Source: an uncultured Clostridia bacterium
GTDB taxonomy: Bacteria > Bacillota > Clostridia > Christensenellales > UBA1242
NCBI GenBank assembly: GCA_947631485.1
Contig: CANRLJ010000012.1
Location: 1 to 12,637, forward strand
Direction: 5' to 3'
Length of the DNA: 12,637 nucleotides
In this document: positions 1 to 9,050 of the stretch, one piece after another
Position numbering within the stretch: the first letter of the stretch is position 1
Layout: each line of letters opens with the position of its first letter
The notes under the pieces: generated by a model
Told to the model about the DNA's origin: nothing
Databases searched by the model: none
The model's input: the letters and a program-made list of their open reading frames with translations, nothing else
Made by a program: the position numbers and the translations under genes

Positions 1-1997
1 GAAACGGATTTGAGGTTTTTGCCACAAAAGGGCATATAAGAGATTTGCCTGCAAAGTCATTTTCCATCGATTTAAACACTTTTGAGCCTCACTATGAAAT
101 AAATCCGGACAAAAAACAACTCATTGAAGAACTCAAACGCAAGGCCGCCAAAGCGGATGAAGTTTTGATTGCAACCGACCCTGATAGAGAGGGCGAGGCA
201 ATTTCTTGGCACGTTGCATATGTTTTGGGGCTTGACCCAAACACAAAGTGCCGTATTCAGTTTAACGAAATTTCAAAAAAAGCAGTTTTGAAGGCACTCA
301 CAGAGCCAAGAGCCATTGATTTAAACCTTGTCAATGCTCAACAAGCAAGGCGTGTCCTTGACAGAATTGTGGGCTATAAACTTTCACCAATTTTGTCAAA
401 GAAGATTGCTCCAAAACTGTCTGCTGGCAGAGTTCAGTCCGTTGCACTGAAACTTGTTGTGGACAGAGAGAAGGAAATCGAAAACTTCAAACCAGAGGAA
501 TATTGGAACTTGAACGCCGTGCATGAAAAGGGCGGAATTTCCTTTAAATCGGCACTGACAAGTTTTAAGGGCAAAAAAATTAAACTTTCAAACAAAGAGG
601 AAGTTGATGGCGTTGTGTCTGCAATTAAGGGTGCAGATTTTGTCATTTCAAACATCAAGAAAGGAAACTCAAAATCTCACGCACCAGCACCTTTTACAAC
701 CAGCACAATGCAGCAAGATGCACTAAACAAACTTGGCATGAGCCTGAAAAAAACAACATCTTCCGCACAGGAACTGTATGAGGGTGTTGACATTGAGGGC
801 GAGGGCAAATTGGCGCTCATCACATATATCCGAACTGACAGCACAAGAGTTTCAACAGATGCTCAAAATGCATGTCTGGAATATATCGCGCAAAAATATG
901 GCAAGCAATATGTTCCATCAAAACCAAACATCTATGCGACCAAAAAGACGGCACAGGATGCCCATGAAGCAATTCGACCAATCTCCATGCAGATGACGCC
1001 AGAGAAAGTTAAAAACTCTTTGAGCAAAGACAACTACAGACTTTATAAACTTATTTATGAACGCTTTATGGCAAGCCAAATGAGTGAGGCACTGTATTCA
1101 AATGTAAATGTCACAATTAAGGCAGGGGAATATGAGTTTAAGGCCGTTGGCAGAACGCAAGATTTTGATGGCTTCACAGTTGTGTATAAAGAATACACGG
1201 ACGAAGAAAAACAAGAGGCTGCAAAACTTCCAAAATTGGAAGAAAACGAAATTTTGCCTGTCAAAGACATAAAGGAAGAACAAAAATTCACCAAGCCACC
1301 TGCTCGCTACACCGAGGCAAGCCTTGTGAAAGCCATGGAGGAAAAGGGCATAGGCAGACCTGCAACTTATGCTGCCACCATAACCATATTGACGGCAAGA
1401 GCATATTGCACAAAAGAGGGCAAGGCACTTGTTCCAACCGAACTTGGAAGAAAAATGTGCGCATATCTTGACAAGTTTTTCAGCGGGGTCATAAATGTGA
1501 AATTCACTGCTCACATGGAAAACCGACTTGACGACATTGCAGAAAACAAGGACGAGTGGCACAGTGTTGTTGACAGTTTTTGGCATGGGTTTAAGGACCT
1601 TCTTAAAAATGCTGATGCAAGCAGCCTGACAATGAAGGCGCAGCCGGTTGAAACAGATGTTGTCTGTGACAAATGTGGGCACAAAATGGTTATTCGAGAG
1701 GGGAAATATGGCAAGTTTTTGGGCTGTTCAAACTTTCCTAAGTGCAGAAACATCATGCCATATGAAGACCACGAGAAAAAGCCTGTTGGGGTTTGCCCAC
1801 AGTGTGGAAAAAATGTTTATGCCTTCAAATCAAAGCGAGGAAAGACATTTTATGCCTGCGAGGACAGAGAAAAGTGCAACTTTATGAGTTGGGATATTCC
1901 TGTTGACGAAAAATGCCCACAGTGCGGAAAATACATGGTCAAACACGGAAAAACCATCAAATGCTCGGCTTGCAACTATGTAAAACCAAAGGAATAG
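1..1997 (+). CDS. topA: DNA topoisomerase I (type IA), 5' end cut off by the window
   Basis: Type IA topoisomerase, which relaxes negatively supercoiled DNA through a transient 5'-phosphotyrosine link to one strand. The open frame runs from base 3 to the TAG at 1995-1997 (664 residues in the window). The first residues (NGFEVFATKGHIRDLP) are typical of the TOPRIM domain, so the true start and the TOPRIM catalytic glutamate lie upstream of the window. The TTG at 45 is internal, not a start. The TOPRIM acidic motif DPDREGEA begins at 177. The active-site tyrosine is in LITYIRTDSTR (codon 825-827). Three C-terminal cysteine-rich zinc ribbons follow (about 1660-1760, 1793-1880 and 1912-1980), each opening CxxCG, which is usual for Firmicutes TopA. 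It lies 103 bases upstream of the hslV start, as part of the topA-hslVU neighbourhood common in Firmicutes. Identification is very secure. Confidence 0.97.
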   Translation, partial: NGFEVFATKGHIRDLPAKSFSIDLNTFEPHYEINPDKKQLIEELKRKAAKADEVLIATDPDREGEAISWHVAYVLGLDPNTKCRIQFNEISKKAVLKALTEPRAIDLNLVNAQQARRVLDRIVGYKLSPILSKKIAPKLSAGRVQSVALKLVVDREKEIENFKPEEYWNLNAVHEKGGISFKSALTSFKGKKIKLSNKEEVDGVVSAIKGADFVISNIKKGNSKSHAPAPFTTSTMQQDALNKLGMSLKKTTSSAQELYEGVDIEGEGKLALITYIRTDSTRVSTDAQNACLEYIAQKYGKQYVPSKPNIYATKKTAQDAHEAIRPISMQMTPEKVKNSLSKDNYRLYKLIYERFMASQMSEALYSNVNVTIKAGEYEFKAVGRTQDFDGFTVVYKEYTDEEKQEAAKLPKLEENEILPVKDIKEEQKFTKPPARYTEASLVKAMEEKGIGRPATYAATITILTARAYCTKEGKALVPTELGRKMCAYLDKFFSGVINVKFTAHMENRLDDIAENKDEWHSVVDSFWHGFKDLLKNADASSLTMKAQPVETDVVCDKCGHKMVIREGKYGKFLGCSNFPKCRNIMPYEDHEKKPVGVCPQCGKNVYAFKSKRGKTFYACEDREKCNFMSWDIPVDEKCPQCGKYMVKHGKTIKCSACNYVKPKE

Positions 1998-2038
1998 AAA
2001 AATAAAGCCAAAATTTTTAGGTTAAATGCAAACAAATA

Positions 2039-2047
2039 TGTTACAAT
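2039..2047 (+). promoter_or_regulatory. Possible extended -10 promoter for hslVU
   Basis: TG at 2039-2040, one base, then TACAAT at 2042-2047 makes an extended -10 element. It sits 54 bases before the hslV ATG, in the only sizeable gap between topA and hslV. No good -35 hexamer is present at 16-19 bases upstream; an extended -10 can partly replace it. This is a motif match only. Confidence 0.4.
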
Positions 2048-2100
2048 CAATATAAGAGGTTTCAATTTGAGAGGAGTTGAGCAAAAAAAAGGAGAAAATT

Positions 2101-2643
2101 ATGGACGAACCACTTTTTAGAGGGACAACAATTTGTGCTGTGAAGAAAGATGGCAAAATTGCCGTTGCTGGCGATGGTCAGGTGACCATGTCAAACAGCA
2201 TAATCTTCAAAAACAATGCAAAAAAGGTCAGAAGAATCTACAACAACAGCGTTGTGATTGGATTTGCAGGGTCTGTTGCTGACGCGTTCAGTTTGAGTGA
2301 GCGCTTTGAGGCAATGTTGAATAAATTTGCCGGAAATCTGATGAAAAGTGCTGTTGAACTTGCTCAGACATGGCGTGACGACAAGGCTTCAAGAAGATTG
2401 GAGGCCATGATGATTGTTGCCGACAAAAATCAGATTCTTATTTTGGATGGTCAGGGCGAGGTCATCGAGCCACAGGACGATGTTTGTGCAATAGGCTCAG
2501 GCGGAAACTATGCTTTGGCCGCAGCAAAGGCACTGATTCAAAACACTGATTTGCAGTCAAAGGACATTGCATACAGAGCATTGAAGATTGCAAGTGAAAT
2601 TTGTGTGTTTACAAACGACAACATCATTGTTGAAGAATTATAA
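2101..2643 (+). CDS. hslV: ATP-dependent protease peptidase subunit HslV (ClpQ/CodW)
   Basis: Proteolytic subunit of the cytoplasmic HslUV protease, a double-ring N-terminal nucleophile enzyme related to proteasome beta subunits. The ATG at 2101 is preferred because AAAAGGAG lies six bases upstream. An in-frame TTG at 2077 would add eight lysine-rich residues and has its purine-rich tract directly abutting it. From 2101 the protein is 180 residues. It begins MDEPLFRG followed by TTICAVKKDGK. By comparison with E. coli HslV (M-TTIVSV), Thr9 should be the catalytic nucleophile exposed after removal of an eight-residue leader. The GDGQVT and KNNAKKVRRIY stretches are family hallmarks. Unlike B. 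subtilis CodW, which uses an N-terminal serine, this one has threonine. The TAA at 2641 is 14 bases from the hslU ATG, so the two are co-transcribed. Confidence 0.95.
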   Translation: MDEPLFRGTTICAVKKDGKIAVAGDGQVTMSNSIIFKNNAKKVRRIYNNSVVIGFAGSVADAFSLSERFEAMLNKFAGNLMKSAVELAQTWRDDKASRRLEAMMIVADKNQILILDGQGEVIEPQDDVCAIGSGGNYALAAAKALIQNTDLQSKDIAYRALKIASEICVFTNDNIIVEEL

Positions 2644-2657
2644 AAGGGGAAAGGGAA

Positions 2658-3953
2658 ATGAGTTTAACATCAAAACAAATTGTTGCAGAACTTGACAAAT
2701 ATATTGTTGGACAAGCAAAGGCAAAAAGAGCCGTTGCTGTGGCACTGAGAAACAGATATCGCAGAAGCCAACTTCCAACTGAAGTGCGCGAAGAAATAAC
2801 GCCAAAAAACATCGTTATGAGTGGTCCAACCGGCGTTGGAAAGACGGAAATTGCCAGAAGATTGGCAAAACTTGTTGGCTCTCCTTTTGTGAAGGTTGAG
2901 GCGACAAAATACACCGAAGTGGGCTATGTTGGAAGAGATGTTGAAAGCATGGTCAGAGACCTTGTTGAAGTCGCTGTCAGGATGGTTAAGGACCAAAAGA
3001 AAAAGGAAGTTGAGGCAAAGGTTTTGCCAATAGTTGAGGAAAAACTTGTTGACGCACTGTTTCAAAACAGAAGGGTCACACAGGTTGAGGTTGACCGCGA
3101 AAAGCTGTTGAAGGAACTGCATGACGGCACGTGCGAAAACGAAATTGTTGAAGTTGTTGTGGTTGACCAGCCAAAACCTATGATGGCGATTGGCGGAAAT
3201 GAAATAACTTTAGGAAGTATGTTTGAAGGACTGACTCCACCAAAACACAAGAAGAAGAAACTTTCTGTAAGAAACGCACGCGAAGCACTTTTGCAGGAGG
3301 AGAGCGACAAAGTTATTGACAATGACAATGTGAACGAAGAGGCAATCAAACTTGCCGAAGAACAAGGAATTATCTTCATCGACGAAATCGACAAAATCAT
3401 TGGAAAGAGCCAAGCAACAAACAGTGCGGATGTTTCCAGAGAGGGCGTTCAGCGTGACATTTTGCCGATCGTGGAAGGCAGCACAGTTCCAACAAAATAT
3501 GGCAATGTGAAGACGGACTTCATCCTTTTTATTGCTGCAGGGGCGTTCCATGTTGCAAAAATGGAAGATATGATTCCAGAACTTCAAGGAAGATTTCCAA
3601 TTATTGTCGAACTTGAAAGTCTGACAAAAGACGACTTCAAGAAGATTTTGACAACGCCAAAAAATGCAATCACTCTTCAATATGCAAATATGCTGAGGGT
3701 GGACAACATAAATCTGATATTCAAAGATGACGCTCTTGACGAAATTGCAGAGATGGCAGCACGAGAAAACGAAACAACTCAGGATTTGGGCGCAAGAAGA
3801 CTTCACACAATCATGGAGACCGTTCTTGAGGATGTTTCCTTCAATGCAACAGGAGACCATCCAATGCTTGATGTTGTGATTGACAAAAAATATGTGCAAA
3901 ATGTCTTTAAAGACAAGCAGGCAAAATACGATTTAAAGAAATATGTGCTATAA
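2658..3953 (+). CDS. hslU: HslUV protease ATPase subunit HslU (ClpY/CodX)
   Basis: AAA+ unfoldase that recognises substrates and feeds them into HslV. The ATG at 2658 follows a purine-rich AAGGGGAAAGGGAA site. The 431-residue protein shows Walker A GPTGVGKT (residues 56-63), the pore-loop motif GYVG (89-92), an intermediate domain of about 110-230, Walker B IIFIDEID (238-245), and AGAFHVAK then ELQGRFP in the sensor/arginine region. The C-terminal small domain contains TTQDLGARRLHT. It ends KKYVL; the HslU C-terminal tail inserts into HslV to activate it, and this short hydrophobic end fits. Length is slightly below the usual 440-460 residues, within the variation of the intermediate domain. 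No damage is visible. It is the last gene before a palindromic intergenic element at 3955-4004. Confidence 0.97.
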   Translation: MSLTSKQIVAELDKYIVGQAKAKRAVAVALRNRYRRSQLPTEVREEITPKNIVMSGPTGVGKTEIARRLAKLVGSPFVKVEATKYTEVGYVGRDVESMVRDLVEVAVRMVKDQKKKEVEAKVLPIVEEKLVDALFQNRRVTQVEVDREKLLKELHDGTCENEIVEVVVVDQPKPMMAIGGNEITLGSMFEGLTPPKHKKKKLSVRNAREALLQEESDKVIDNDNVNEEAIKLAEEQGIIFIDEIDKIIGKSQATNSADVSREGVQRDILPIVEGSTVPTKYGNVKTDFILFIAAGAFHVAKMEDMIPELQGRFPIIVELESLTKDDFKKILTTPKNAITLQYANMLRVDNINLIFKDDALDEIAEMAARENETTQDLGARRLHTIMETVLEDVSFNATGDHPMLDVVIDKKYVQNVFKDKQAKYDLKKYVL

Positions 3954-3954
3954 C

Positions 3955-4004
3955 AATATCTTGTGGTGTTATTCAAATGATTGTTTGAATACTACCACAA
4001 TATT
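3955..4004. repeat. Imperfect 50-bp palindrome between hslU and tcdA (repeat copy E1)
   Basis: Left arm 3955-3977 and right arm 3984-4004 are inverted copies around a six-base loop TGATTG. Paired blocks are AATAT/ATATT, TGTGGT/ACCACA and TATTCAAA/TTTGAATA, separated by a two-base bulge and a two-base mismatch. The stem starts two bases after the hslU stop codon and could act as a weak terminator, but it is AT-rich and is followed only by TTTTG, not a long T run. The arm sequence recurs in modified form near 6823-6883 and 11629-11673, which points to a repeat or operator family. An in-frame TTG at 3981 inside the palindrome is not a credible start for the next gene. Confidence 0.75.
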
Positions 4005-4022
4005 TTGTATTTGGGGGTTTGT

Positions 4023-4715
4023 ATGTGGAGCGATAGAACCAAACTTTTAATAGGTGAAAGTGGTGTCGAGAAGTTGGCAAAAAGTCATGTTGCTGTGATT
4101 GGCTTGGGTGGCGTTGGCGGTTATGTTGTAAATCTTCTTGCCAGAGCAGGCATTGGAAAAATAACCATCATCGACTTTGACAGGGTTGACGAAACCAATA
4201 TAAACCGACAAATTGTGGCAGACACAACCACGGTTGGGCAGTTGAAAACTGAGGTTATGTACAACATGATTCAAAAGATAAATCCAAACTGCATGGTCAG
4301 AGTTTTGGCGGAGAGAGTTAATGCTTCAAATTTGGAAAAAATCTTGGGTGTTGAGTGCGATTATGTTGTTGATGCCATTGACAATGTGCAAGACAAAGTG
4401 GACCTCATTTCCTATTGCAAACAAAACAAAATCAAGATTGTTTCTGCAATGGGTGCAGGAAATCGCTATGCAATGCCAAACTATGAAGTTGTTGACATCT
4501 ATAAGACGCATGATGATGGTCTTGCCAAAGTGCTGAGGAAAAAATTCAGAGAGCAAAACATTGAAAGTTTGGATGTTGTTTCGTCAAGCCAGAGGACATT
4601 GAAGATTGAGGCCGATGATGGCTCAGGGCAAAACAAGGTTGTTGGCAGCATATCATATCATCCGGCAATGTGTGCCTGTGTTTTAGCAAGTTTTGTTGTA
4701 AATAAATTGCTTTGA
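4023..4715 (+). CDS. tcdA: TcdA-like tRNA threonylcarbamoyladenosine dehydratase (ThiF/E1 family)
   Basis: ATP-dependent E1-like enzyme. The closest family I recognise is TcdA (CsdL/YgdL), which cyclises t6A37 of tRNAs reading ANN codons to ct6A. The ATG at 4023 is chosen because GGGGG at 4013-4017 lies upstream and because WSDRTKLLIGESGVEKL matches the family N-terminus (SRTELLIG). The product is 230 residues. It shows the nucleotide-binding GLGGVGG (27-33), the acidic DFD at the end of the second strand (51-53), NINRQ (59-63), and DYVVDAIDNVQDK. The C-terminal GSISYHPAMCACVLASFVV matches the TcdA end. Other ThiF-family roles (MoeB, ThiF) are less likely given the lack of the four zinc cysteines and of sulfur-carrier neighbours. 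The E. coli enzyme works with a cysteine desulfurase system; here nifS lies two genes downstream. Confidence 0.82.
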   Translation: MWSDRTKLLIGESGVEKLAKSHVAVIGLGGVGGYVVNLLARAGIGKITIIDFDRVDETNINRQIVADTTTVGQLKTEVMYNMIQKINPNCMVRVLAERVNASNLEKILGVECDYVVDAIDNVQDKVDLISYCKQNKIKIVSAMGAGNRYAMPNYEVVDIYKTHDDGLAKVLRKKFREQNIESLDVVSSSQRTLKIEADDGSGQNKVVGSISYHPAMCACVLASFVVNKLL

Positions 4716-4731
4716 TAACAAGGAGGAAAAT

Positions 4732-5043
4732 ATGGAAATCATAAAGGAAAAAGATTTTGAAAAAACAATAAAAAAGGGTGTTGTTGTGGTTGACTTTTTT
4801 GCAACTTGGTGCGGCCCATGTCGCATGATGAGTCCAATTTTGGAACAAGCACAAGAGACCCTTGGCGACAAAGCAAAAATAGTTAAGGTTGATGTTGATG
4901 AAAGCGAAAAGTTGGCAAGATCATATGGAATTATGAGTATTCCAACGCTCTTGTTTTTCGTTGACGGGCAGTTAAAAGACAAGCACATTGGGCTTATGAG
5001 CAAGGATGACTTCATTGAAACGGTTGAAAAATACACTTTATAA
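4732..5043 (+). CDS. trxA: Thioredoxin
   Basis: Small cytoplasmic dithiol oxidoreductase of 103 residues, the standard length for thioredoxin. The ATG follows a near-perfect AAGGAGG site (about 4720-4726). The active site is WCGPC (26-30), with the buried aspartate D21 in VVDFFATW and the cis-proline P71 in SIPT. There is no signal peptide or membrane segment. The aromatic before the active site is Phe (DFFA) where many thioredoxins have Trp. It lies 16 bases after tcdA and is probably co-transcribed with it; a new promoter follows downstream. Whether this is the main thioredoxin or a specialised one serving its neighbours cannot be told from the window. Confidence 0.93.
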   Translation: MEIIKEKDFEKTIKKGVVVVDFFATWCGPCRMMSPILEQAQETLGDKAKIVKVDVDESEKLARSYGIMSIPTLLFFVDGQLKDKHIGLMSKDDFIETVEKYTL

Positions 5044-5075
5044 TTCAAAAATAATGGTCAAAACGAAAAATACTA

Positions 5076-5104
5076 TTGACAACCAAATCTTTTGGTGCTA
5101 AAAT
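5076..5104 (+). promoter_or_regulatory. Sigma-70 type promoter of the nifSU operon
   Basis: A consensus -35 TTGACA (5076-5081) and -10 TAAAAT (5099-5104) are separated by exactly 17 bases. Transcription would start near 5111, about 26 bases before the nifS ATG. This is the best promoter in the window. The spacer contains a perfect inverted repeat (separate entry). Confidence 0.8.
5082..5096. promoter_or_regulatory. Putative operator inside the nifSU promoter spacer
   Basis: ACCAAA-TCT-TTTGGT is a perfect six-base inverted repeat. It is centred at 5089, wholly between the -35 and -10 hexamers, the classic place for a repressor to block RNA polymerase. Iron-sulfur assembly operons are often controlled by Rrf2-family regulators such as IscR, but no regulator gene is in the window and I do not match this to a known consensus. 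Confidence 0.5.
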
Positions 5105-5136
5105 AAAACTGAATTTTTATTTTAAAAGGAAGGATT

Positions 5137-6347
5137 ATGGAAAGAAGAATTTACTTAGACAACGCCGCAACAACTTATGTTTCAAACGAAGTTTTAAACG
5201 AAATGGTTCCTTGCTTCAACACTCTCTACGGAAATGCTGGCTCTCTTCACAGTTTGGGACGCGAAGCAACCGCAATTCTTGACCGAGCAAGAGACAGAGT
5301 TAAAGAGGCAATAAATGCAAGCAAAGCAAATGAAATATATTTCACATCAGGAGGAAGCGAAAGCGACAATACAGCAATTAAAGGAATAGCATATGCAAAG
5401 ACAACTGGGCGATTCTTGGCGTTGCTCGTGCAAATGTAAACAAGGGCAAACATATCATAACCACTCAAATAGAACATCATGCAGTGCTTCACGCTTGCCA
5501 GCAACTTGAAAGAGAGGGCTTTGAAGTCACATATCTTCCAGTTGATAAATATGGGCTTGTTGACATGGCAGAACTGTTGCATGCAATCAGAAAAGACACA
5601 ACTTTGATTTCTGTTATGACAGTAAACAACGAAGTTGGAACAATTCAAAACATCAAAGCCATTGCAAAAATTGCACATGACTACAATATATATTTCCACA
5701 CAGACGCAGTGCAAGCAATTGGATGCCTTAAAATAGATGTTCAAGACATGGACATAGACTTGATGTCAATGTCCGCACACAAAATCCATGGTCCAAAGGG
5801 CGTTGGAGCGCTTTACATCAAAAATGGCGTCAGAATCGACCCAATCTTGTTTGGTGGCGACAGCCAAGAGCGTGGAAAACGTGCCGGAACAGAAAATATT
5901 CCAGGAATTGCAGGTTTCGGAAAGGCCATTGAAATAGCAACAAGAAACCACATTATAAACAACAAAAAACTGAAGAACATCAGAGAATACTTTATTCAAA
6001 AACTGAAGGAAAAGGTTGATTATATTCAAATCAACGGACATCCACATCAAAAATCAAATGCCATTGTAAGCGTTTCATTTTACGGAATCGAAGGCGAAAG
6101 CATCATGATGCTGCTTGACTTGGCAGGAATTTGCACATCAACCGCTTCGGCATGCACTTCAAAATCACTTTTGCCATCACATGTGCTTCGAGCAATGGGA
6201 ATTCCAGATGAAGTGGCACAAGGAACAGTAAGATTTTCTTTTGGAACAAATATATCAAAGTCTGATGTCGATTATGTAACAGACGAAATTCAAAAGGTGG
6301 TTGCAAAACTTCGTGCAATTTCACCAATTCAAGCAGGGAGGATGTAA
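5137..6347 (+). pseudogene. nifS: Cysteine desulfurase NifS/IscS, frameshifted by a duplicated 35-bp segment
   Basis: PLP-dependent enzyme that takes sulfur from cysteine as an enzyme persulfide and passes it to iron-sulfur scaffolds and tRNA thiolation. The ATG at 5137 follows AAAAGGAAGG. The first frame encodes [13 protein letters not shown] through [18 protein letters not shown] and stops at a TAA at 5437-5439. The rest of the enzyme continues one frame away, from [18 protein letters not shown] at 5400, to the TAA at 6345. Segments 5365-5399 and 5400-5434 encode alternative versions of the same peptide. Deleting either 35-base copy gives an intact 391-residue protein. In that protein the PLP lysine of SAHKIHGPKG is residue 204 (codon 5781-5783) and the active cysteine of TASACTSKS is residue 328 (codon 6153-6155), close to K206 and C328 of E. 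coli IscS. No other damage is visible and nifU downstream is intact. This suggests a recent event, an assembly error, or something more unusual. As written the gene cannot make a normal enzyme without frameshifting. Confidence 0.88.
5365..5434 (+). repeat. Two adjacent, diverged 35-bp versions of the same nifS segment
   Basis: Copy 1 (5365-5399) encodes [11 protein letters not shown]. Copy 2 (5400-5434) encodes [11 protein letters not shown]. By hand alignment 21 of 35 bases match, and both copies begin GACAA and end GCAAA. Seven of eleven residues are identical, so these are homologous but not freshly copied. Both peptides are plausible for this position in NifS proteins, just after the SGGSES motif. 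Because the unit is 35 and not 36 bases, carrying both shifts the frame. Confidence 0.85.
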
Positions 6348-6350
6348 AAT

Positions 6351-6758
6351 ATGTATAGCAAAACTGTAATAGATAGATTTCAAAATCCAAGAAATGCAGG
6401 TGGTATGCATGGTGCAAATGCCATTGGAGAAGTTGGAAATGCCGCATGTGGCGACATCATGAAAATGTATCTTAAAATCAGTGATGATGGCATAATTGAA
6501 AACGCAAAGTTCAAAACATTTGGCTGCTGCGCAGCAATTGCATCCACAGATATGGCTTGCGATTTGATTAAAGGCAAGACGATTGAAGAAGCATTAAAAA
6601 TCACAAATAAAGATGTTTTGGATTTGCTTGGAGAACTTCCACCACACAAAATTCACTGCTCAATACTTGCAGAAGAAAGCATAAGAGCAGCAATACAAGA
6701 CTATTATGCAAAACGCGAAAAGGAAATCAAAAAATCAACAAAGAAATCTTCAAACTAA
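6351..6758 (+). CDS. nifU: Iron-sulfur cluster scaffold protein, NifU/IscU type
   Basis: Scaffold on which a Fe-S cluster is built with sulfur from NifS before transfer to client proteins. The ATG at 6351 is three bases after the nifS stop, and its ribosome binding site GGGAGG (6337-6342) lies inside the end of nifS, implying coupled translation. The 135-residue protein is an NifU N-terminal-domain-only form, as is usual in Clostridia. The three cluster cysteines are C33 (GNAACGD, with D35), C59 (FGCCAAIAS) and C103 (HKIHCSILAEE). C60 gives an extra adjacent cysteine where many homologues have Gly or Ser. The end is lysine- and serine-rich (about residues 121-135) and probably disordered. A terminator follows at 6764-6794. 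Confidence 0.93.
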   Translation: MYSKTVIDRFQNPRNAGGMHGANAIGEVGNAACGDIMKMYLKISDDGIIENAKFKTFGCCAAIASTDMACDLIKGKTIEEALKITNKDVLDLLGELPPHKIHCSILAEESIRAAIQDYYAKREKEIKKSTKKSSN

Positions 6759-6763
6759 TAAAT

Positions 6764-6794
6764 AAAAAAAATGCAAGCAAAATTGCATTTTTTT
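6764..6794 (+). terminator. Intrinsic terminator of nifSU
   Basis: ATGCAA (6771-6776) and TTGCAT (6783-6788) form a stem with loop GCAAAA, flanked by seven A before and T6788-T6794 after, so the A and T tracts can extend the stem. It starts six bases past the nifU stop codon. The symmetry means it could also work on the minus strand. Confidence 0.8.
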
Positions 6795-6822
6795 GTTGCA
6801 AAATTATAAAAAGATGAAAAAC

Positions 6823-6883
6823 GGAATTTCATTGCATAATACCATATATTGTGGAATTATATTTGCATACTACCCGAAATATA
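6823..6883. repeat. Tandem direct repeats with a palindromic core (repeat copy E2)
   Basis: Two units lie in tandem. Unit 1 (6823-6843) is GGAATT, TCA, then TTGCATAATACC. Unit 2 (6853-6874) is GGAATT, ATAT, then TTGCATACTACC. The cores differ by one base of twelve and are 31 bases apart. The stretch 6844-6883 also has a left arm TATATTGTGG and a right arm ACTACCCGAAATATA, a weak palindrome like that at 3955-4004. The gap holds no credible gene; an open frame at 6793-7077 has no ribosome binding site and no recognisable protein. Confidence 0.6.
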
Positions 6884-6887
6884 GCCT

Positions 6888-6921
6888 ATCTCTTCGTAAA
6901 ACCTGTCTTTTGCGAATAGAT
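6888..6921. other. Long hairpin of unknown role in the convergent intergenic region
   Basis: Left arm 6888-6901 (ATCT C TTCG T AAAA) pairs with right arm 6908-6921 (TTTT G CGAA T AGAT) around a six-base loop CCTGTC. There are twelve Watson-Crick pairs plus one T-G wobble and one mismatch. No T run follows on either strand, so it does not look like a normal terminator. It may be a folded 3' UTR segment, a small RNA, or part of the adjacent repeat element. Confidence 0.5.
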
Positions 6922-6937
6922 TTAGATTGTGAAATAA

Positions 6938-6999
6938 CAAAAAAAATTGTGCCCTCCCGAAAAATTTGGCTGGCAAAAGTCTGCAAAACAAAGGTGGGC
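6938..6999 (-). terminator. Possible terminator of the ruvCAB-queA-tgt operon
   Basis: Read on the minus strand, GCCCACC (6999-6993) can pair with GGGAGGGC (6958-6951), and an eight-base U run (6946-6939) follows four bases later. The loop is long, about 34 bases, but contains a small inner pairing around UUUG/CAAA and GC/GC. The position, about 30 bases past the tgt stop, suits a terminator. The long loop makes it less certain than the nifU terminator. Confidence 0.45.
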
Positions 7000-7028
7000 T
7001 TTTCTTTATTTCCTGCTCCCAAATGCAA

Positions 7029-8156
<1,128 letters not shown>

Positions 8157-8165
8157 CTATTTTGT

Positions 8166-9050
8166 CTAATTGATAAAATTGTTTATTAATTTTTCTATCC
8201 AGGACTTATCATTTTTGGCAAAAGCCTGTTCAAAATAATAATGAAATTGATAAAGTTTAAGCCTTTCTTTTAAAAATGGATTATCAAACATCTCAGGACA
8301 AAATTCTTTCAGCCAAGCCAACAAATTTGCATAATCTCCTAACTTGGTGTTTTTCTCATCATCTTCATTTGCAAACTTCCAAGGCTCGTCGCACATTGAT
8401 TTAAAAATCATCAATTCATAGTCTTTTGGACAATGCAAAACTCGGTCAAAATCAATCAAATACAACTTCCCCTTATCATAAATAAAGTTGTCAAAATGAG
8501 CATCATTGTAAATCAAACAATAGTCGTTGCCCGCCAGATATTTAACACTTTCTTTCAACTTTTTGGCCATTGTGTCGTTGTAAAGGTCAAGTTTTTTGAG
8601 TTTTTTAAGAATAATTTTGATTTGTATTTTCCAATATTTTTTCCAATTTGTAATCACATCAACTCTTGGCAATTTTGCTTTTATCTGATGAAACTGCTTT
8701 AATATGTCAGCAATTTGCCCGACAATCTCTTTGCGAGTTGACTCGTCCAATTTATGCCAAATAGAGTAAAGTCGTTTGCCCTTTATTTGCGATAAAATCA
8801 AATATTCGTAGTCCTCAAACTTTCCGCTTGAGATTTTTTGCGGAACAAAATCAAAAGAAAATGCGTCATAAAGGTCTATTTCCTTTTGCAAGCGCCACAT
8901 TTTGTCTTTATCACTTGAAAGTTTTATTACATAATTTTTATCGATAAAAAACACATCATTTGTAAATCCAGATGATGCCCTTCTTATTGAAGAATAAGAT
9001 ATGTTTTCCTTTTTCAAGATTTGAGAAACTATCTCAGGTAAATTGTCCAT
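8166..9050 (-). CDS. APH/choline-kinase-fold phosphotransferase-like protein, substrate unknown
   Basis: A 294-residue protein with the aminoglycoside phosphotransferase/choline kinase fold. It has a nucleotide-loop-like SGFTNDVFFID (27-37), a candidate ATP-binding lysine in YVIKL (K43), and a helix glutamate near 57. The catalytic loop is LIYNDAHFDNF (179-189) and the metal-binding motif LIDFD (198-202). The catalytic Asp (183), the Asn (188) and the metal Asp (200) are present, but the usual HGD is replaced by YND. The middle (about 130-170) is a lysine-rich helical insert. The gene sits between queA and tgt, normally neighbours, with 29- and 18-base gaps and its own AAGGA site, so it belongs to the operon. 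It is much more AT-rich than its neighbours (11 of 60 G+C at 8581-8640, against 30 of 60 at 9541-9600), which hints at later acquisition. The substrate cannot be inferred; calling it a resistance gene would be unjustified. Confidence 0.75.
   Translation of the reverse strand: MDNLPEIVSQILKKENISYSSIRRASSGFTNDVFFIDKNYVIKLSSDKDKMWRLQKEIDLYDAFSFDFVPQKISSGKFEDYEYLILSQIKGKRLYSIWHKLDESTRKEIVGQIADILKQFHQIKAKLPRVDVITNWKKYWKIQIKIILKKLKKLDLYNDTMAKKLKESVKYLAGNDYCLIYNDAHFDNFIYDKGKLYLIDFDRVLHCPKDYELMIFKSMCDEPWKFANEDDEKNTKLGDYANLLAWLKEFCPEMFDNPFLKERLKLYQFHYYFEQAFAKNDKSWIEKLINNFIN

Follow-up and report, generated by a model that had tools for sequence, protein, structure and literature searches.

A frameshifted nifS gene in a draft Clostridia genome as a probable local cross-species assembly chimera

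Introduction

The nifS gene on contig C12 of a draft metagenome-assembled genome (MAG) from an uncultured Clostridia bacterium is broken by a frame shift, and the break is probably a local cross-species chimera produced during metagenome assembly, in which ~54 nt of another bacterium's nifS have been stitched into the gene. The cause is most likely technical rather than a genetic switch. The whole stretch of DNA analysed, 12,637 nucleotides in length, is referred to here as the window, and the MAG from which it comes comprises 779,975 bases in 118 contigs, with an estimated completeness of 76.59% and contamination of 0.22%.

If the gene is indeed an assembly chimera, it clearly illustrates how a very short stitch between species can give a gene the appearance of being dead and yet leave no trace in completeness and contamination figures such as those given above. 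Cases of this kind would inflate the pseudogene counts of MAGs. If instead the break is real, it would show in nature how a short foreign patch can inactivate a widely kept gene.

Results

The reading frames of nifS

The window contains no single uninterrupted nifS frame. The upstream frame runs into a stop codon at 5437-5439, after 100 codons, and the remainder of the gene lies in a different frame, which begins before 5400 and is open to 6347. When compared with the NifS model TIGR03402, which has 379 positions, the upstream piece matches positions 1-81 with 102.5 bits and the downstream piece positions 72-379 with 419.9 bits. Each piece lies below the curated cut-off of 530.75 bits because the frame is broken, and it is the two pieces jointly that identify the gene as nifS. 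The two matches overlap, so that each frame carries its own coding sequence for around ten NifS residues. The locus thus resembles a regular nifS in that the model is matched part after part by the two pieces and a nifU-type gene follows, as in relatives, but differs from one in its broken frame and in the failure of either piece alone to reach the model cut-off. The coordinates of these features are collected in Table 1.

At the site of the shift, two 35-nt segments, 5365-5399 (copy 1) and 5400-5434 (copy 2), lie next to one another. They are identical at 21 of 35 bases, and each, read in its own frame, translates to an 11-residue peptide. A preliminary description of this DNA had drawn attention to these back-to-back segments and to the shift that they cause in the nifS frame, and its coordinates, translations and identity count were all confirmed. 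Its view of the pair as two alternative versions of one 35-bp segment has to be revised, as copy 2 is an ordinary segment of the genus, while copy 1 forms the last part of a longer non-genus stretch. The unusual part of the gene begins accordingly at ~5346, and not at 5365 as had been supposed.

Table 1. Coordinates of nifS, its parts and its immediate neighbours in the window
Feature	Position	Strand	Remarks
Thioredoxin gene, upstream	4732..5043	+	TIGR01068 above cut-off; same neighbour in 10 of 10 relatives' regions
Truncated reading frame resulting from the shift	5137..5439	+	100 aa
Native 5' part of nifS	5137..5345	+	Best genus identity 0.81-0.91 in 18-codon windows to 5343; G055 match to 5345
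54-nt non-genus stretch	5346..5399	+	Last 35 nt are copy 1; genus outlier; peptide in four genome_contigs records
Native 3' part of nifS, shifted frame	5400..6347	+	First 35 nt are copy 2; best genus identity 0.87 over 5400-5453; TIGR03402 positions 72-379
nifU/iscU-type scaffold gene, downstream, intact	6351..6758	+	TIGR03419, 170.2 bits (cut-off 187.9)

Extent of the non-genus stretch

The window and its nearest relative, G055, are identical at 0.91 of positions over 5290-5343, and the match breaks after TTTCAC, ending at 5345. Beyond this point the window reads ATCAGGAGGAAGCGAAAGC followed by copy 1, where G055 reads TAGCGGCGGCACTGAGGCC and then GACAACTGG. In other words, 54 nt in the window occupy the place of 19 nt in G055, and therefore the net shift is +35. 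On its left side the stretch keeps to the register of the conserved FTSGG block, while on its right side it is out of register. The left edge itself sits within a conserved block, and its position is uncertain by some bases.

The test relied upon here to place the stretch outside the genus used 40 distinct sequences drawn from 56 genus loci. Over 5344-5397 the highest identity of the window to any of these is 0.70, whereas all 40 share an identity of 0.76 or more with some other member of the genus at these columns. The difference extends to the encoded motif. EADN is present in 31 of 31 distinct genus segments, where the stretch reads ESDN; the residue that follows is tryptophan in 29 of these segments, methionine in one, leucine in one and threonine in none, and the stretch has threonine. 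Five of the 40 genus rows are odd at the motif (ANNM twice, SNNM, SDDW and ANTM). None of the 40 has SDNT. Copy 2 is of the genus type at this motif, while copy 1 with its lead-in is not, and beyond 5400 the best genus identity is 0.80-0.89 in ten 18-codon windows extending to 5615. The seven windows of lowest identity to G055, out of 861, all overlap the stretch, an effect that comes partly from the register shift; the stretch is not alone in its low identity to G055, as windows in tcdA go down to 0.44. The stretch is outside the range of its own lineage, as expected of a local chimera.

Flanking sequence and gene order

For the comparison of both flanks of the stretch, 16 genus genomes were taken from among previous hits. 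The left flank (2077-5343) has its best match in G055, at 79% identity over positions 9-3137 of 3267 (2619 bits). For the right flank (5400-8150) G055 also gives the top identity (85% and 81% in two long pieces) and the largest bit-score sum, the best single alignment being to G003 (74%, 1780 bits). Comparing the two halves of nifS with relatives had been put forward in the preliminary description as a way of recognizing a chimera, and among these 16 genomes it is G055 that is nearest on both sides. The order of genes around nifS matches that of relatives: a nifU-type gene comes after nifS in nine of the ten relatives' regions, and the tenth (G067) stops inside nifS. As both flanks are nearest to G055 and the gene order is that of relatives, the oddity is local. 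The joining of two genomes end to end is ruled out by the nearest relative that the flanks have in common among the 16 genomes.

nifS across the genus and paralogues within the MAG

A nifS orthologue is found in 58 of the 60 other genomes of the genus sample, with no internal stop among the matches listed, and a NifS-type match (E 1e-60) is found in 377 of the 391 genomes of the class sample. The two genus genomes with no orthologue at E 1e-60 are G013 and G068. Since the latter is 99% complete, nifS is not indispensable in the genus and a true loss is possible. G068 also has no hslU match at E 1e-20, and in lacking both genes it is unlike most of the sample.

A second nifS had likewise been suggested as something to look for. 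The search of the MAG, which is 76.6% complete, yielded only two distant paralogues, at 33% and 27% identity, and neither carries the stretch. These paralogues, on contigs C55 and C65, read TGCATESNNMAIKGS and TAGCTEALNLAILGS at the corresponding position, and the 35-mer occurs only once in the MAG; together these observations rule out a paralogue in the recovered part of the genome as the source of the stretch.

The idea that nifS is a hot spot for assembly breaks was considered and rejected. Contigs end within the gene in two of the 58 other genus orthologues (G055 and G067, the latter at the end of contig C3), as compared with four of 58 for hslU. In G055, the end of contig C54 (L071) corresponds to window position 5213 and the start of contig C66 (L070) to 5218, with no overlap between them, which is to be taken as a hint only. 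In a separate observation, hslU is found at G073:C88:3266-3860 (minus strand) as two pieces in overlapping frames, one of which has an internal TGA; this may be another broken or mis-assembled gene.

The possible origin of the stretch

The 16-residue peptide of the stretch, with fitting codons, is found in four records of genome_contigs, a collection described as holding one genome per species for 84,980 species. These records belong to an Erysipelotrichaceae MAG, a Clostridiaceae MAG and two 'uncultured Clostridia' MAGs whose names include 'Lapin'. Over 5350-5399 their agreement with the window is 42 or 43 of 50 bases, an identity biased upward by their having been picked with the stretch; upstream it is only 64-74 of 213 bases in an ungapped comparison. 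At L057 and L059, nifS is an intact frame of 394 codons, and the next frame resembles nifU by eye. A 64-nt DNA query (5336-5399) has matches in 28 other genomes of the class sample of 391, the best being 84% over 57 nt. None of the seven members of the same genus in that sample gives a match to this query, and all seven carry nifS.

How near the stretch appears to other bacteria depends on how these are chosen. In a first comparison, in which 27 genus and 11 outgroup sequences were kept, the stretch was nearer to outsiders by 0.13, a value reached by none of 1686 null windows; this outgroup is biased, having been retrieved by means of the stretch or the peptide that it encodes. With an outgroup chosen by whole-length NifS similarity the difference was -0.056, reached by 63 of 1746 null windows and by three of 28 same-column sequences. 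This second comparison kept 28 genus sequences and nine of 21 outgroup loci, the other 12 having been lost to a text filter that was too strict. A later comparison retained 21 of 21 loci selected over their whole length and 22 of 23 selected with the stretch (L056 has no usable frame). Here the identity of the stretch is 0.83 to the genes found with it, which form a biased set, 0.65 to the 21 NifS genes picked independently and 0.70 to the genus. SDNT is found in none of those 21 NifS genes. The label 'foreign', as applied to the stretch, thus rests on the genus-outlier test and on genes found by way of the stretch itself.

Allowing up to three mismatches, the 35-mer is absent from 111 other genus genomes, and no donor is found in the 390 other genomes of the class sample, seven of which are of the genus. 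Nor is there an exact donor match in viral_contigs.

Discussion

A local assembly chimera as the probable explanation

According to PMC4782286, chimeric assembly can be caused by identical stretches that co-existing species share in their conserved regions, and PMC11479545 links conserved regions that occur in several contexts to branched assembly graphs and short contigs. The case described here resembles chimeric metagenome assembly, as presented in the former paper, in two respects: it lies in a draft MAG with flanks from one genome, and the stretch starts in a conserved motif of a gene common across the class. Reads from the nifS of a co-resident bacterium, sharing this conserved block, are likely to have pulled the assembler off the native path. 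The assembler would then have followed the other nifS for a short distance, and the native piece that comes next, beginning with GACAACTGG, would have been attached with no true overlap. On such an account the organism's actual nifS would be intact.

The right junction is a weak point of this explanation, as it has no clear overlap to native sequence. A graph assembler normally needs an overlap at a junction. At only ~54 nt, the stretch is also shorter than the assembly chimeras that are usually discussed. Two further points from the sequence comparisons tell against a chimera, namely that no exact donor has come to light and that independently picked NifS genes are no nearer to the stretch than the genus is. 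Recombination with a foreign nifS and chimeric assembly had both been listed among the options in the preliminary description, and these two fit the data; what does not is the framing of the site as two versions of a 35-bp unit.

Alternative explanations

The foremost rival is a real event, in which a short piece of foreign nifS recombined into the gene, homologously on the left and illegitimately on the right, and inactivated it. In homology-facilitated illegitimate recombination, as outlined in an excerpt of PMC3240628, small linear DNA is homologous at one end and joined illegitimately at the other, and the stretch, with one homologous edge in register and the other edge out of register, has this pattern. 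It departs from the process as presented in that excerpt in that no donor is found and its homologous edge, as shared by the closest look-alikes, is short. In the collection of papers searched, the term 'short-patch double illegitimate recombination' (SPDIR) returned no paper. Because a foreign patch would be expected to have the same appearance, and because the genus can lack nifS (as in G068 and G013), this reading keeps a minor though appreciable chance. Against it, the stretch is present in no close relative, the surrounding operon is intact, and the searches of the genus genomes, the class sample and viral_contigs found no donor. It is somewhat unlikely that a wild strain of this small-genome lineage has lost its main cysteine desulfurase through a cross-lineage patch of ~54 nt.

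A chimera might also predate assembly, as a product of template switching between nifS genes during library preparation or whole-genome amplification. In a draft assembly this could likewise be expected to fuse homologues from different organisms, but it would require two switches within ~54 nt and the dominance of the product over normal reads, and is considered improbable.

Tandem duplication of a 35-bp nifS segment, followed by divergence, is less probable still. It has in its favour that the adjacent segments are homologous and equal in length. However, the two copies do not both come from one native segment: copy 1 lies beyond the genus range, and the preceding 19 nt, which are also unlike the genus, are not explained by duplication of the unit.

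A functional arrangement is scarcely credible in either of the forms raised in the preliminary description, namely a -1 frameshift across the junction or switching between coding segments. Both frames stay open from 5382 to 5437, but the -1 frame meets a stop codon at 5379, a heptamer of the form XXXYYYZ begins nowhere in 5365-5440, and the arrangement is without parallel among 31 distinct genus segments.

Other features of the window

Two further genes in the window set it apart from G003, G006, G050 and G056, the four relatives' regions that include both tgt and queA. A gene of the PF01636 phosphotransferase family (8166-9050, minus strand) lies between tgt and queA; its protein has no match in these four regions, where the gap between tgt and queA is only 9-293 nt. 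Similarly, a GNAT-type acetyltransferase gene (PF00583; 10126-10599, minus strand) lies between queA and ruvB, and has no match in the same four regions, where the corresponding gap is 13-221 nt. Between nifU and tgt, many relatives share a conserved segment at ~6830-6925, which has no Rfam match at the gathering threshold and contains no tRNA. Some of their genomes have it at other places as well, G050 at several.
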